Source of the DNA: Candidatus Mycolicibacterium alkanivorans
GTDB lineage: Bacteria > Actinomycetota > Actinomycetes > Mycobacteriales > Mycobacteriaceae
Direction: 5' to 3'
Length of the DNA: 64,000 bases
NCBI RefSeq assembly: GCF_022760805.1
Contig: NZ_JAIVFL010000001.1
Location: 1,550,001 to 1,614,000 of the forward strand
The position numbers and the translations under genes were made by a program. The stretch's first letter is position 1. Each line of letters opens with the position of its first letter. Shown here piece after piece: positions 2,697 through 50,888 of this stretch. Below the pieces are notes generated by a model. It was not told the origin of the DNA and searched no databases. It saw only the letters and a list, made by a program, of their open reading frames with translations.

Positions 2697-3539
2697 GTGC
2701 GGGAGACCAGCAATCCGGTATTTCGTTCGCTGCCCAAGCAGCGAGGGGGATACGCACAGTTCGGCTCCGGTGTAGCCGGCGCCCAGCAGGTGGCCTACCA
2801 GGCCGACCCCTACACCACGCAGTACCCGTCGCAGACCGGTGTCTCGCGGCCGATGACCATCGATGACGTCGTCACCAAGACCGGCATCACCCTCGGTGTG
2901 CTCTCCGTCGTGGCGGTCATCTCCTACTTCATGGTGTCGGCCAACCTCGCGCTGGCGATGCCGTTCACCCTCGTTGGTGCGCTCGGCGGCCTGGCACTGG
3001 TGCTCGTGGCGACCTTCGGCCGCAAGCAGGACAACCCGGCGATCGTGCTGAGCTACGCCGCCCTCGAGGGCCTGTTCCTCGGTGCGATCTCGTTCGTGAT
3101 GGCCAACATCGTGGTGTCCGGCGCGAATGCCGGCTCGCTGATCGGCCAGGCTGTGCTGGGCACCATCGGTGTGTTCGCCGGCATGCTCGTGGTCTACAAG
3201 ACCGGCGCCATCCGCGTCACCCCGAAGTTCACCCGCATGTTGGTGGCCAGCATGGTCGGCGTTCTGGTGCTGATGCTCGGAAACTTCGTCCTGTCCATGT
3301 TCGGCACGCACGACGGCGGCCCGCTGCGCAACGGCGGCACGATGTCGATCATCTTCTCGCTGGTGGTCATCGCGATCGCGGCGTTCAGCTTCCTGCTGGA
3401 CTTCGACGCTGCCGACCAGATGATCCGCGCCGGTGCGCCGGAGAAGGCCGCGTGGGGCGTCGCCCTCGGCCTGACCGTCACCCTGGTGTGGCTGTACCTG
3501 GAGATCCTGCGTCTGCTGAGTTACTTCCAGCAGCGCTAG
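2697..3539 (+). CDS. Bax inhibitor-1/YccA family membrane protein
   Basis: A 280-residue integral membrane protein with about seven hydrophobic segments spread from residue 65 to the C terminus, preceded by a polar, Gln/Tyr-rich N-terminal tail. The pattern and length fit the Bax inhibitor-1/YccA family (Rv1072 homolog); the physiological role in mycobacteria is not established. GTG at 2697 is chosen as start because an AGGAGAGG ribosome-binding site lies at 2682-2689. It is divergent from echA9 and followed by a hairpin terminator, so it is probably transcribed alone. Confidence 0.85.
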   Translation: MRETSNPVFRSLPKQRGGYAQFGSGVAGAQQVAYQADPYTTQYPSQTGVSRPMTIDDVVTKTGITLGVLSVVAVISYFMVSANLALAMPFTLVGALGGLALVLVATFGRKQDNPAIVLSYAALEGLFLGAISFVMANIVVSGANAGSLIGQAVLGTIGVFAGMLVVYKTGAIRVTPKFTRMLVASMVGVLVLMLGNFVLSMFGTHDGGPLRNGGTMSIIFSLVVIAIAAFSFLLDFDAADQMIRAGAPEKAAWGVALGLTVTLVWLYLEILRLLSYFQQR

Positions 3540-3552
3540 CAATTCCCGCACA

Positions 3553-3580
3553 AAGCCCCGGTCTTCCGGCCGGGGCCTTG
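3553..3580 (+). terminator. Hairpin terminator after the YccA-family gene
   Basis: AAGCCCCGG and CCGGGGCCTT pair around a short TCTTCCGG-containing loop just 14 bases after the stop codon, followed by TTGTTG. A single bulged base interrupts the stem. Confidence 0.6.
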
Positions 3581-3586
3581 TTGTGC

Positions 3587-3646
3587 GTTGAGTGCGCGTC
3601 CAGGGCGAGATTTCGAGCGATTCGTCGCCATACACGCACACTCAAC
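3587..3646 (+). repeat. 60-bp palindromic repeat, copy 1 (degenerate)
   Basis: This element starts GTTGAGTGCGCGTCCAGGGCG and ends ACGCACACTCAAC. It is the same element as the copy at 4531-4590, in the same orientation. Its right arm has diverged (CGCCATACAC instead of CGCCCTGGAC), so the stem is imperfect. It sits 45 bases upstream of the DUF559 gene start. Confidence 0.8.
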
Positions 3647-3691
3647 AGGGGTGAAGTGCCTCAAGGGTGAGGTTGGAGGGAGCCTTCCGGC

Positions 3692-4615
3692 GTGCGCTCG
3701 CCGTCGGCCCCGTTCATCGGCTCGGAGGCTCTGCGTAGTGGTGAGGTCAATCGGCATCAATTGCGCACCAGGTACCGGGCGATATTCCCGGGGATCTATG
3801 TCGCAACCGATACCCAACCTTCCCTGTGCGAACGCAGCTTTGCGGCGTGGCTGTGGTCGGGACGCGTTGGCGTGCTCGCCGGTTTGGCGGCATCGGCTCT
3901 CCACGGCGCGAAGTGGATCAACGCCGACATCCCCATCGACCTCATCTGCGACAAGCCCAGGGCGCCGGTAGGTGTGAGTACACGTCGGGACCGATTGTCC
4001 GACAGGGAAATTCAGCGTGTACGGGGCCTACCGGTCACCACCCCTGCGAGGACGGCGTTCGACCTAGGCCGGCGCGCCCCGGTCGGTATCGCGGTCGCTC
4101 GCCTCGACGCACTGATGAGCGCGACCGGCGTGACAGTCGAGGCAATCCAGGATGTTGCACGCAGCCATCCGCGCCGCCGGGGTCTGCGACGACTCGAGGC
4201 TGTTCTCGACCTCGTCGACCCAGGAGCGCAATCACCCAAAGAGACTTGGCTGCGATTGCTGCTCATCGAGGCCGGCCTGCCGCGACCGCGTACGCAGATT
4301 CCGGTCCGGGCGCCGGACGGATCCACCTATTACCTCGACATGGGCTGGGAGGACGTCAAGGTCGCGGTCGAGTACGACGGCGATCACCACCGAACCGATC
4401 GCGTGCAATACGCCAGAGACATTCGTCGCATCGAAGCGCTGACTGCGCTCGGGTGGCTGGTGGTGCGAGTGGTCGCAGGCGACACACCCGCAGACATTGT
4501 GCGACGGGTCCGCGCTGCGATCGATCAGAGGTTGAGTGTGCGTCCAGGGCGAGATTCCGAGTGGATTCCCGCCCTGGACGCACACTCAACGCAAATCAGG
4601 AGAGCCGTTCGATGA
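3692..4615 (+). CDS. DUF559 (Vsr-like, PD-(D/E)XK fold) endonuclease-domain protein with AbiEi-like N-terminal region
   Basis: A 307-residue protein. The first ~150 residues resemble the AbiEi/type IV antitoxin-like region often fused to DUF559 in actinobacteria (GSEALRSGEV, FPGIYVATDT, LAGLAASALHGA, TTPARTAFDLGRR). The C-terminal part is the restriction-endonuclease-like DUF559 domain, with YYLDMGWEDVKVAVEYDGDHH followed by a basic helix and GWLVVRVVAGD. GGAGGGAG at 3675-3682 supports GTG 3692. Its last ~27 codons are encoded by the second 60-bp palindrome and a short tail, so the natural C terminus ends inside a repeat. The gene is convergent with fadA3, which it overlaps by 20 bases. Function is unknown; nuclease or mobility roles are inference. 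Confidence 0.72.
   Translation: MRSPSAPFIGSEALRSGEVNRHQLRTRYRAIFPGIYVATDTQPSLCERSFAAWLWSGRVGVLAGLAASALHGAKWINADIPIDLICDKPRAPVGVSTRRDRLSDREIQRVRGLPVTTPARTAFDLGRRAPVGIAVARLDALMSATGVTVEAIQDVARSHPRRRGLRRLEAVLDLVDPGAQSPKETWLRLLLIEAGLPRPRTQIPVRAPDGSTYYLDMGWEDVKVAVEYDGDHHRTDRVQYARDIRRIEALTALGWLVVRVVAGDTPADIVRRVRAAIDQRLSVRPGRDSEWIPALDAHSTQIRRAVR
4531..4590 (+). repeat. 60-bp palindromic repeat, copy 2 (near-perfect palindrome)
   Basis: The 21-bp arms are perfectly complementary: GTTGAGTGTGCGTCCAGGG plus CG on the left and its reverse complement on the right, separated by 18 bases. It lies inside the 3' end of the DUF559 reading frame and just before the convergent fadA3 stop, so it could also act as a bidirectional terminator. 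Copy 1 lies at 3587-3646. Confidence 0.85.
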
Positions 4616-5813
4616 CCATGGCCATGCCCTGGCCGCCGCCGACGCACATCGTCTCGATACCGAACGTCTTGTCGTAGGTCTGCAGGTTGTTGAGCAGCGT
4701 GGCAGTGATCCGCGCGCCCGTCATGCCGAACGGATGCCCCAGCGCGATCGCCCCGCCGGAGACGTTGAGCTTGTCCTCGTCCATCCCCAACTCCCGCGCC
4801 GAGCCGAGCACCTGCACCGCGAACGCCTCGTTGATCTCGTACAGGTCGATGTCCGAGATCGACATCTTCGCGTTCGCCAGCGCCTTCTTGACCGCCTCGA
4901 TCGGTCCCAGGCCCATGATCTCCGGCGACAACCCCGACACCCCCGTGGCCACGACGCGCGCCAGCGGCGTCAGACCGAGTTCCTTGGCCTTGGCGTCGGA
5001 GACGATCACCAGCGCCGCCGCGCCGTCGTTCAACGGACAGGCATTACCCGCTGTGACCGTGCCATTGGGGCGGAACACCGGCTTGAGCTGGCTCAGCGCC
5101 TCATACGTGGTGCCGGCCCGCGGGCCGTCGTCCTTGCTGACGACCGTGCCGTCGGGCAGCGTCACCGGGACGATCTCGCGCTCGAAGAAGCCGCTCTTGA
5201 TCGCCTCCTCGGCACGGTTCTGCGACCGCACACCCCAGCGGTCCTGGTCTTCCCGGCTGATGCCGGTGTAGCACGCCACGTTCTCCGCGGTCTGCCCCAT
5301 CGCGATGTACACGTCGGGCAGCAGGCCGTCCTCGCGGGGATCGTGCCACTCCTCGGCGCCGGCCGCGGCCGCCGCCGTGCGCTCGCCGGCCGCGTTGTAC
5401 ACCGGGTTCTTGGTGTCCGGCCACGCGTCGGCGTTGCCCTTGGTGAACCGCGACACGGTATCCACGCCCGCCGAGATGAACGCGTCGCCCTCGCCGGCCT
5501 TGATCGCGTGGAACGCCATCCGGGTGGTCTGCAACGACGACGAGCAGTACCGGTTCACCGTGGTACCCGGCAGGAAGTCGTAGCCCAGTTGCACGGCGAC
5601 GGTGCGGCCGATATTGAAGCCCGACTCGCCGGCGGGCTGGCCGCAGCCCATGATCAGGTCGTCGATCTGGGTGGGATCCAGCGCGGGCACCTTGTCCAGC
5701 GCGGCGCGCACCATCTGCGCGGCCAGGTCGTCGGGTCGTATGTCGACCAGCGAGCCCTTCATCGCGCGGCCGATCGGCGAGCGGGCAGTGGCAACGATGA
5801 CGGCTTCGGGCAT
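4596..5813 (-). CDS. fadA3: Acetyl-CoA acetyltransferase (thiolase) FadA3
   Basis: A 405-residue thiolase. The nucleophilic cysteine is C90 in NRYCSSSLQT; the C-terminal GHPFGMTGARI carries the catalytic histidine and CVGGGQGMAMVIE the second cysteine. It cleaves 3-ketoacyl-CoA to acetyl-CoA plus a shortened acyl-CoA (or the reverse condensation) in the cytosol. The length matches Rv1074c exactly. It is the third beta-oxidation gene of this segment with echA8 and echA9, although not in their operon. The SGNH hydrolase gene lies just upstream on the same strand. Confidence 0.92.
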   Translation of the reverse strand: MPEAVIVATARSPIGRAMKGSLVDIRPDDLAAQMVRAALDKVPALDPTQIDDLIMGCGQPAGESGFNIGRTVAVQLGYDFLPGTTVNRYCSSSLQTTRMAFHAIKAGEGDAFISAGVDTVSRFTKGNADAWPDTKNPVYNAAGERTAAAAAGAEEWHDPREDGLLPDVYIAMGQTAENVACYTGISREDQDRWGVRSQNRAEEAIKSGFFEREIVPVTLPDGTVVSKDDGPRAGTTYEALSQLKPVFRPNGTVTAGNACPLNDGAAALVIVSDAKAKELGLTPLARVVATGVSGLSPEIMGLGPIEAVKKALANAKMSISDIDLYEINEAFAVQVLGSARELGMDEDKLNVSGGAIALGHPFGMTGARITATLLNNLQTYDKTFGIETMCVGGGQGMAMVIERLS

Positions 5814-9910: not shown

Positions 9911-10579
9911 ATGACTCAGCCACCTCCCGGTGACTACCCGCCTCCGCCCGGACCCCCGCCGGGCAACTATCCGCCGCCAGGGAACTACCCGCCGCCCGGC
10001 AACTATCCGCCGCCAGGGAACTACCCGCCGCCCGGCAACTATCCGCCGCCCCCGCCGGGGAACTATCCGCCTCCGCCGCCGGGCGTCGGCCCGCTGAGGG
10101 TACTGCCCAAAGAGGCCTACACCCCGTGGGTCAAGCGGGTCGGCGCATGGATCATCGACAGCCTGCCGGTAGCGATCCTGTCCGGCGTCGGCCAAGGGAT
10201 CATGTACGCCACCGGTGAGAACAACTGCGTCTCGACCAGCGGTGACAACGGCTACGGCGTGGCCTGCACGTCGCAGCCGTCGGCGCTGGGCCTGATCCTG
10301 TCGTTCGTGTTCGGACTGGCCGCGTTCGCATTCGCGATCTGGAACTACGGCTACCGCCAGGGCACCACGGGCTCGAGCATCGGCAAGTCCGTGCTCAAGT
10401 TCAAGGTGGTCGGCGAGAAGACCGGTCAGCCGATCGGGTTCGGGTTGTCGATCGTGCGTCAGCTGGCGCACATCGTCGACGCGATCATCTGCTACATCGG
10501 CTACCTGTTCCCGTTGTGGGATGCCAAGCGGCAGACGTTGGCCGACAAGATCATGACGACGGTCTGCTTGCCCATCTGA
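9911..10579 (+). CDS. pra: Proline-rich antigen homolog, RDD family membrane protein
   Basis: 222 residues. The first ~60 residues are a repetitive Pro/Gly/Asn/Tyr tail built of PPGNYPP units; the rest is an RDD domain (PWVKRVGAWIIDSLPVAIL with its conserved Arg/Asp, then LILSFVFGLAAFAFAIW and a late hydrophobic VDAIICYIGYLFPLW), giving about three membrane segments. It matches the Rv1078 (Pra, 36-kDa antigen-like) position between cbs and metB. The ATG is at 9911, just after the broken copy. The biochemical role is unknown. A strong hairpin terminator follows. Confidence 0.85.
   Translation: MTQPPPGDYPPPPGPPPGNYPPPGNYPPPGNYPPPGNYPPPGNYPPPPPGNYPPPPPGVGPLRVLPKEAYTPWVKRVGAWIIDSLPVAILSGVGQGIMYATGENNCVSTSGDNGYGVACTSQPSALGLILSFVFGLAAFAFAIWNYGYRQGTTGSSIGKSVLKFKVVGEKTGQPIGFGLSIVRQLAHIVDAIICYIGYLFPLWDAKRQTLADKIMTTVCLPI
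9962..10050 (+). repeat. Tandem 36-bp coding repeat in pra
   Basis: About 2.5 copies of a 36-base unit (GGCAACTATCCGCCGCC + AGGGAACTACCCGCCGCCC) encode alternating GNYPPPGNYPPP. Such a tract is prone to slippage and length change. Confidence 0.8.
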
Positions 10580-49539: not shown

Positions 49540-50175
49540 GTGAGCACACAGACCTTCGACCACCCCTTCTTCGCACGGTTCTGGACGGTGCTGTCCGCCC
49601 ACGAATCCGGTGCGATGAAGAAGATGCGCAAGGAGAACCTCGCGGGTCTGACCGGCCGGGTGCTCGAGGTCGGCGCGGGCACCGGGACCAACTTCGCGTT
49701 CTATCCCGACACCGTGACCGAGGTCGTCGCGCTCGAACCCGAGACCCGGCTGGCACCGCATGCCGCGCAGGCCACGGCGTCCGCACCGGTCCCGGTGACG
49801 GTGATCGAGTCCACCATCGAGACCATGCCGGCCGTCGAACCGTTCGACGCCGTGGTGTGCTCACTGGTGTTGTGTTCGGTCGCCGACCCGGATGGCGTTC
49901 TGCGCCAACTCAATTCAGTGCTCATGCCCGGTGGTGAACTGCGCTACTTCGAGCACATCGCGCAGCCGGGCTGGCGCGGCCAACTGCAGAAGGTGGCCGA
50001 CGCGACGATCTGGCCGCGACTGGCCGGCAACTGCCACACCCACCGCGAGACCGAGCGGGCGATCGCCGGTGCCGGCTTCTCCATCCAGACCGCGCGTCAC
50101 GAGGCGACCTTCCCGGCCTGGGTGCCGCTTCCGGTTCAGGAAGTCGCGCTGGGGCGGGCGCTGAAAGGCGCTTAG
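49540..50175 (+). CDS. Class I SAM-dependent methyltransferase (Rv1147-like)
   Basis: 211 residues from GTG 49540. [17 protein letters not shown] (motif I), [14 protein letters not shown] (motif II), [16 protein letters not shown] (motif IV) and [17 protein letters not shown] (motif V/VI) are the UbiE/Coq5-like set. Late [19 protein letters not shown] resembles methyltransferase-like 7 proteins that act on thiols or lipids. Convergent with cobB, whose stop it overlaps by four bases. Confidence 0.82.
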
Positions 50176-50888
50176 TTTTCCAGCAGCGCGGGCAGCTGCA
50201 ACAGCAGGGTAGGCAGTGCCGTGGTTGCGGACTCCCGGATGGTGAGCGTCGCGTTCTCCGATAACGGGGTGGGCTGCGGGTTGACCTCCACCACGATCGT
50301 TCCGCGCGCCAGCGCCACTTCGGGCAGCCCGGCCGCCGGATAGACGATTCCCGAGGTGCCCACCACCACCAGGACGTCGGCGGTGGCGACTGCCTCGACC
50401 GCGGCCCGCCACGGCCCGTCGGGAAGCTGTTCGCCGAACCAGACGATGCCGGGGCGGATCAGTCCGCCGCACTCACAGCTCGGCGGCATTTTCTCCAGCT
50501 CGGGTTCGGGCATGTCGGGCAGCGGCGCATGATAGCGGGCCCCGCAGGTGTCGCACCAGAACTCCGAGAGGCTGCCGTGCAGGTGATGCACCGGCTTGCT
50601 GCCGGCCCGCTCGTGCAGGTCGTCGACGTTCTGGGTGATGACGGCGACGTCGGCGTAGTCCTGCCAGGCCGCGACTGCGCGGTGGCCGTTGTTGGGTTCC
50701 ACCGTGGCGACCAGGTGGTGGCGCCACAGATACCAGGCCCAGACCCGCTCCGGATGCGTTTGCCAGCCGTCGGTGCTGGAGAGTTCGTAGGGATCGTATT
50801 TGGCCCACAATCCGGTCGCGTCGTCCCGAAACGTCGGTACACCGCTTTCGGCGGAGATCCCCGCCCCGCTGAGCACCGTTATGCGCAC
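50172..50888 (-). CDS. cobB: NAD-dependent protein deacylase (sirtuin, class III SIRT5-like)
   Basis: 238 residues from GTG 50888 ([20 protein letters not shown]), chosen by alignment to Rv1151c; TTG 50897 and GTG 50894 are in-frame alternatives. GAGISAESG binds [14 protein letters not shown] holds the catalytic region with HLHGS, and WCDTC plus CECGG bind zinc. Y53 and R56 in WYLWRHHL are the Tyr-x-x-Arg pair of sirtuins that remove succinyl/malonyl groups as well as acetyl. Divergent from the GntR regulator. Confidence 0.92.

Follow-up and report, generated by a model that had tools for sequence, protein, structure and literature searches.

Mycobacterial DUF559 nuclease genes mostly lie between matching palindromes that vary with the encoded protein, suggesting REPtron-like units

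Bracketing by a matching pair of palindromic elements is general for DUF559 nuclease genes in mycobacteria and some relatives. The gene that we examined first lies in a 64,000-nucleotide stretch of Candidatus Mycolicibacterium alkanivorans (contig NZ_JAIVFL010000001.1, positions 1,550,001 to 1,614,000; here called the window), where it stands between two copies of a 60-bp element. We lean toward the view that such loci form a family of REPtron-like element-nuclease-element units, built on an unrelated nuclease, in which the protein would cut its own site and DNA repair would spread the unit. The parts of the unit in the window are as follows.

3587 to 3646, plus strand: upstream palindromic element (copy 1); the open reading frame starts 45 nucleotides (nt) downstream
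3692 to 4615, plus strand: DUF559/MTES_1575 nuclease gene, 307 amino acids
3692 to 4219, plus strand: AbiEi antitoxin-like module, the probable DNA reader (residues 1 to 176)
4232 to 4537, plus strand: nuclease domain of predicted I-Bth0305I/Vsr fold (residues 181 to 282), with conserved E184, D216, E227, and D243
4531 to 4590, plus strand: downstream palindromic element (copy 2), overlapping the last codons of the gene at about residues 280 to 300

A preliminary description of this DNA had reported the palindrome in direct orientation 45 nt ahead of the gene and again within its last codons, and this is borne out: the two copies are direct repeats with 82% identity over 60 nt. The perfect 21-nt arms that it described in copy 2 are also present (4531 to 4551 and 4570 to 4590), copy 1 being the weaker palindrome of the pair. 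Folded as single-stranded DNA, copy 2 reaches −31.0 kcal/mol (z, −11.9) and copy 1 reaches −16.6 kcal/mol (z, −4.4), and for each, 0 of 200 shuffles were as good. With as many as 3 mismatches allowed, the window contains the arm pattern 4 times (0.03 expected), and a search of Rfam gave three matches, each far below the gathering score. The C terminus of the gene runs into the repeat in the window as first described, but this is not an essential feature of the family; the homologs listed are mostly about 278 to 298 amino acids long, although 68 of 81 genes have a downstream element that begins before their stop codon is complete.

Bracketing was scored over one gene and its 300-nt flanks, with a score threshold of 24. 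The first set was built from 80 of the 132 DUF559 matches in 14 related genomes and the source genome (60 chosen as the highest-scoring matches, plus 20 lower), each taken with a surrounding stretch of 20 kb, and 74 DUF559 genes were called on these stretches and in the window. Fifty of these 74 lay between two matching elements, compared with 7 of 590 other genes on the same stretches, and pairing the upstream flank of one gene with the downstream flank of another gave matches in 7 of 367 pairs. By eye, six of the seven control gene matches were repeated coding sequence and one was a transposase-like gene with a short inverted repeat; on this inspection, tandem gene duplication was rejected as the origin of the bracketing. 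Among the strongest false control matches was a gene for a proline-rich membrane protein, presumably of the RDD type, at 9911 to 10579 of the window, the 3′ end of which resembles its own upstream flank.

The source genome (4.05 Mb) has five DUF559 genes, four of them above the Pfam cutoff, and all five are bracketed, with scores of 39 for the window gene and 37, 30, 57, and 24 for the genes at L010, L011, L013, and L014. One of the five, at 4021883 on the minus strand, lies between two mutually identical 56-bp palindromes whose sequence is unlike that of the window element. A second set, collected separately from named species (16 duplicates and 1 short locus were removed), gave 43 of 63 previously unused genes bracketed versus 27 of 307 permuted pairs, and 38 of 63 versus 5 of 307 at a score of 30; in our view, the permuted control exceeds that of the first set because many second-set genes share a locus. 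The enrichment of DUF559 genes beside the element, which the preliminary description had named as support for its view, is strong and specific in both sets.

When all loci fetched by then were pooled, 91 of 127 nonredundant genes were bracketed, by 58 direct and 33 inverted pairs; the pair at one of them, L215, is an inverted repeat of 250 nt and does not count as an element, and later sets consist of the 85 genes with alignments of at most 130 nt. Palindrome scores of at least 8 were reached by 41 of the 81 copies upstream of a gene and by 51 of the 81 downstream, compared with 2.7% of shuffles, and the upstream element lies a median of 44 nt ahead of the start codon. Outside the genus, 8 of 16 loci scored at least 24 in a set that had no control, and clean palindrome pairs were seen by eye only at L257, L259, L260, and L265. 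At a locus from another genus (L271), the DUF559 gene has tandem arrays of an approximately 21-bp unit on both sides, which are not palindromes.

Element sequence covaries with the protein. Grouping by element sequence placed the 85 compactly aligned bracketed genes in 32 clusters. Between genes at different loci, defined as those with no detected shared flanking DNA, elements matched in 8 of 9 pairs with protein identity of at least 75%, in 48% of 25 pairs at 65 to 75%, and at a rate near zero below 50% (2271 pairs, all bins rounding to 0.00); same-locus pairs at 45 to 55% protein identity matched in about 7% of 174. Because elements are similar where the proteins are similar and dissimilar even at a shared locus, the element tracks the protein and not the position. 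DUF559 genes within one genome shared an element in 0 of 241 element-by-locus comparisons, against 95 of 3630 between genomes (loci taken). The correlation with element similarity was best for residues 11 to 40 and 71 to 110 of the protein (rho, 0.34 to 0.46) and lower for residues 181 to 280 (rho, 0.25).

These results bear on two simpler explanations. If the elements simply terminated transcription between convergent genes and DUF559 genes lay beside them by chance, one would expect hairpins near gene ends at sites that are often convergent, as is the case (39 of 74 DUF559 genes lie between convergent genes versus 139 of 579 control genes). However, a run of T residues follows just 5 of 340 element ends, the only terminator-like site between 3400 and 4800 of the window (at about 3555 to 3577) is separate from the element, matched palindrome pairs are absent from control genes by counts and by inspection, and the sequence of the element follows that of the protein. 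As a full explanation, ordinary terminators are refuted by the bracketing controls and the element-protein covariation, and we consider them extremely improbable; the outcome that would have undone the preliminary description, elements that are merely terminators beside unenriched DUF559 genes, is not what we found.

The second explanation treats the elements as an ordinary transposon's terminal repeats, with the transposase elsewhere and the DUF559 gene as a passenger, and it agrees with the repeat-gene-repeat anatomy and with the occurrence of related genes at different loci. We nevertheless judge such insertion sequence remnants very improbable: each DUF559 specificity has its own repeat, the nuclease residues are kept in the 85 bracketed genes (E227 in 81 of them), and there is little room for another gene between the repeats, which follows by construction from a test spanning a single gene and its flanks. 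Inverted terminal repeats are a mark of insertion sequences; the element pairs here are of both kinds, 58 direct and 33 inverted.

The protein is predicted from modeling to be an AbiEi antitoxin-like module joined to a homing endonuclease (I-Bth0305I/Vsr) domain. The structure model of the window protein has a predicted local distance difference test score (pLDDT) of 92.7, with confidence of 55 to 69 from residue 281 onward. Residues 1 to 176 of the model are AbiEi antitoxin-like, and PADLOC also returned AbiEi hits; residues 42 to 176 additionally match a nucleotidyltransferase fold, MenT1, and residues 181 to 282 match I-Bth0305I and Vsr. A Pfam search of the window protein gave only MTES_1575, DUF559, and AbiEi and no transposase model, and the enzyme is not an HUH transposase; DUF559 was above its cutoff, and MTES_1575 had the better E value yet fell below its cutoff. 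The nuclease residues are conserved among the 85 bracketed genes (S181, E184, D216, and W255 in 85 of 85 and E227 in 81 of 85), conserved acidic residues thus accompanying the modeled EDxHD-type catalytic fold, and the gene is under strong purifying selection. Among the 8,000 sequences scored, at least 7,944 homologs were found at an E value of ≤1e-30. They are annotated as very-short-patch-repair endonuclease, DUF559, endonuclease domain, or type IV toxin-antitoxin protein, names so varied that automatic annotation has been split across unrelated functions.

This architecture could also belong to a defense, restriction-like, or toxin-like system, in which the nuclease or the nucleotidyltransferase-like middle part would act on foreign DNA or on the attacked cell, the elements would be regulatory or protected copies, and the diversity would reflect an arms race. 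AbiEi relatives are found in abortive-infection systems, and the nuclease fold, the MenT1 match, the many specificities (32 element clusters), and a hit of the second-subfamily member L013 to the candidate defense model PDC-S37 in PADLOC (E value, 5.5e-5) all point that way. Against it, the direct neighbors of the window gene (Bax inhibitor-like and thiolase) include no modification partner and no toxin gene, uncut self copies would require protection, and the best hit of the window protein to a PADLOC nuclease model is mREase_II at an E value of 0.008. We regard a defense role as improbable.

Copies of the elements also occur without a gene. In its own genome, the window element is found at 6 places at an E value of ≤0.001, 4 of which are not at a DUF559 gene. 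A second DUF559 subfamily has an element family (half-arm GAGCAGACGCAAAA) that 50 of 76 genomes carry and that reaches 122 exact half-arms in one of them, about 60 palindromes if paired; the reversed control pattern had no occurrences in the 76 genomes. Of the 43 genomes that have the orthologous nuclease, 32 contain at least two half-arms, versus 7 of the 30 that lack it (Fisher P = 3e-5, relatedness ignored), with orthology set by us at 56% identity and three fragment-only genomes dropped (half-arm counts, 7, 74, and 2). Those 7 of the 30 genomes still carry 4 to 53 half-arms in spite of lacking the gene. Bracketing in this subfamily was seen at 28 of 30 loci and at 14 of 15 further intact loci, two of them counted earlier; the outer arm of its element is conserved, and the inner arm varies among species, mostly agreeing between both copies. 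Of eight full palindromes of this family, six are centered no farther than 50 nt from the 3′ end of a called gene and two lie inside a called open reading frame. The preliminary expectation of many copies, most without a gene, is borne out only in part: the second subfamily's element is numerous in some genomes, and 4 of the 6 places of the window element are gene-free, but the window element itself is low copy. High-copy REP status for all elements was rejected, two further elements having few copies.

One genome (G060, loci L356 and L357) carries 74 GAGCAGACGCAAAA half-arms and the orthologous nuclease only as fragments, as if the gene had decayed and the palindromes had stayed. Three others (G046, G051, and G071) have 9 to 53 half-arms and no nuclease match at an E value of ≤1e-50, for which gene loss and a gap in the draft are both possible.

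Presence and absence of the unit at fixed loci can be followed at the window locus and at a second site, for which the surrounding features are as follows.

2697 to 3539, plus strand: left neighbor, Bax inhibitor 1-like gene, which we take to be Rv1072-like
About 3555 to 3577, plus strand: terminator-like site after the Bax inhibitor-like gene, distinct from the element
4596 to 5813, minus strand: right neighbor, convergent thiolase gene, presumably fadA3-like
50165 to 50180, no strand assigned: second site, empty in the window, flanked by convergent methyltransferase and SIR2-like genes

The window locus was fetched in 70 of 78 genomes, 3 of which were without a flank, and 65 species were used. 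Between the Bax inhibitor-like and thiolase genes, the gene is present in 34 of these species and present but reversed in 2; another 24 are empty (less than 260 bp between the flanking genes), and 5 have other content, including what we take to be a purT-like gene and an IS110-like gene. Pairs with 90 to 96% identical flanks differ in occupancy. A match to some DUF559-bracketing element was found within 17 of the 24 empty sites, whereas none of 72 shuffles and none of 24 reversed sequences gave one; at one of the 17 (L207), the best-matching element belongs to a DUF559 gene at another locus of that genome. The second site holds a bracketed DUF559 gene in four relatives (L031, L032, L042, and L080) and none in the window. 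Alleles lacking the whole repeat-gene-repeat, which the preliminary description had predicted, therefore exist at the window locus in other species and at a second site within the window.

Related genes also occupy different loci. In a quick phylogeny of 125 proteins, 10 changes of locus label are required, of which supported branches force at least 8; moves would account for these changes, and old duplicates with losses would do so equally. A unit that inserts into, or is released from, a preexisting element by way of a central cut was considered and is unsupported, close occupied and empty pairs carrying different element families. By eye, the empty sites L198, L202, L217, and L230 contain nested palindromes of two related sequences, which suggests elements inserted into elements. 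At L232, a gene that we take to encode an IS110-like transposase occupies the same convergent site used by DUF559 genes.

The anatomy of the units leads us to infer binding, cutting, and repair-driven movement. We propose that the imperfect palindrome of about 60 bp would be the cognate site of its protein, that two protomers would read the two arms as a dimer, mostly through the AbiEi-like part, and that the nuclease would cut in or near the middle of the palindrome. Repair of the break from a unit-bearing copy, on a sister chromosome or incoming DNA, would then spread or restore element-gene-element elsewhere, preferentially in gaps between convergent genes. Gene-free elements would occasionally be left or spread as by-products or passengers, and each gene would have a private element because specificity drifts. 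I-Bth0305I is reported to form a dimer on a target almost 60 bp long (PMC3943268), and these elements have that length. Several observations weigh against the proposal: the strong constraint on the gene, its long residence at one locus, the low copy number of several elements, absence from phages (0 of 50,697 records), and the presence of only 7 plasmid matches, all partial. On the phage and plasmid counts, carriage by phages or plasmids as a rule was rejected.

The main rival to this proposal is autoregulation through the upstream element. The AbiEi-like module would repress its own gene from the upstream palindrome, the downstream copy would serve DNA looping or block convergent transcription, gene-free copies would be regulated sites or decay products, and the target of the nuclease would lie elsewhere. 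AbiEi antitoxins bind inverted repeats in their own promoters, and the AbiEi-like fold with its PADLOC hits, the position of the upstream element shortly before the start codon, the conservation of the element along with the protein, and the strong purifying selection are all in keeping with an operator. That role alone, however, leaves unexplained the second full copy at the 3′ end, the up to 122 half-arms in one genome, the occurrence at different loci of kindred genes whose elements are also alike, and the inverted pairs (33) found besides direct ones (58), and it sits uneasily with the conservation of nuclease residues in bracketed genes. We consider autoregulation unlikely as the explanation.

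Resemblance to the REPtron (RAYT/TnpA-REP with REP palindromes and REPINs) lies in a chromosomal nuclease gene flanked by palindromes, in cognate families of repeat and enzyme, and, to an extent that differs among the element families, in dispersed gene-free copies (up to 122 half-arms per genome for one family, a handful for the window element and two others). RAYT genes are described as flanked by GTAG repeats or long inverted repeats (PMC3733652). The RAYT enzyme is an HUH/tyrosine transposase, whereas the enzyme here combines a nuclease of predicted Vsr/I-Bth0305I fold with an AbiEi-like module; no GTAG tag is evident (2 of 85 elements near the element end versus 7.3 expected from shuffles), and the elements are about 60 bp long, with few copies in all but one of the four families counted. 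The analogy with RAYT/REP in the preliminary description therefore stands for the architecture, a gene flanked by cognate palindromes, and fails for the enzyme, the tag, and the copy number of two further elements, with movement only inferred.

Other known systems share single features with the unit. I-Bth0305I, an EDxHD homing endonuclease, shares the conserved acidic residues and the catalytic fold predicted here, but its gene lies within a group I intron of a phage, whereas the gene here is free-standing and fused to an AbiEi-like module; EDxHD homing endonucleases interrupt their own target site, whereas here two whole elements flank the gene. AbiEi antitoxins of type IV toxin-antitoxin systems have the AbiEi fold, but no AbiEii toxin gene lies directly beside the window gene, and the module here is fused to a nuclease. 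The names Vsr mismatch endonuclease and DUF559 make no mention of an AbiEi-like module or of palindromes. The unit lacks a defining feature of each near kind, although it would work like a REPtron.

No description of a DUF559-palindrome pairing was found in the part of the full-text literature that was searched, and nothing fitting was found there on ten-base stretches of one element or on Rv1073/MTES 1575; broader searches led to REP/RAYT papers but to no match for this case. As the preliminary description had supposed, the pairing is apparently undescribed; we call its novelty likely, not certain, since subscription papers and preprints were mostly outside the literature searched. Taken furthest, the units would represent a new class of bacterial selfish DNA: thousands of AbiEi-homing endonuclease fusions, each with its own palindromic site of about 60 bp, that move through cleavage and repair, scatter palindromes lacking a gene, and diversify into specificities that exclude one another within a single genome, as a convergent non-HUH counterpart of RAYT/REP. 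We hold this larger view tentatively, placing it a little short of even.

The bracketing sets a very common family of “unknown function” in a context that bears on function. If our interpretation is correct, nuclease-plus-palindrome units arose at least twice, from unrelated enzymes; the units would account for part of the palindromic repeats in mycobacterial genomes and would constitute a natural library of long-site nucleases. The protein and its probable DNA site stand side by side at each locus, and the site specificity of AbiEi- and Vsr-type proteins is therefore directly testable, with dozens of natural variants.

A few sequence features recur within the elements. The tetramer CGAG occurs near the element end in 42 of 85 cases, compared with 12.9 expected. 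A central core, ACTCGNAC or ACACGCC, spotted by eye, is present in 8 of 32 element clusters versus 4.1% of shuffles; as it is confined to those clusters, we claim no universal cut site. By eye, elements of the AGATCGCG class (for example, those at L200, L218, and L221) have an upstream center like ATTCATCCACAG and a different downstream center, as if there were two end subtypes.
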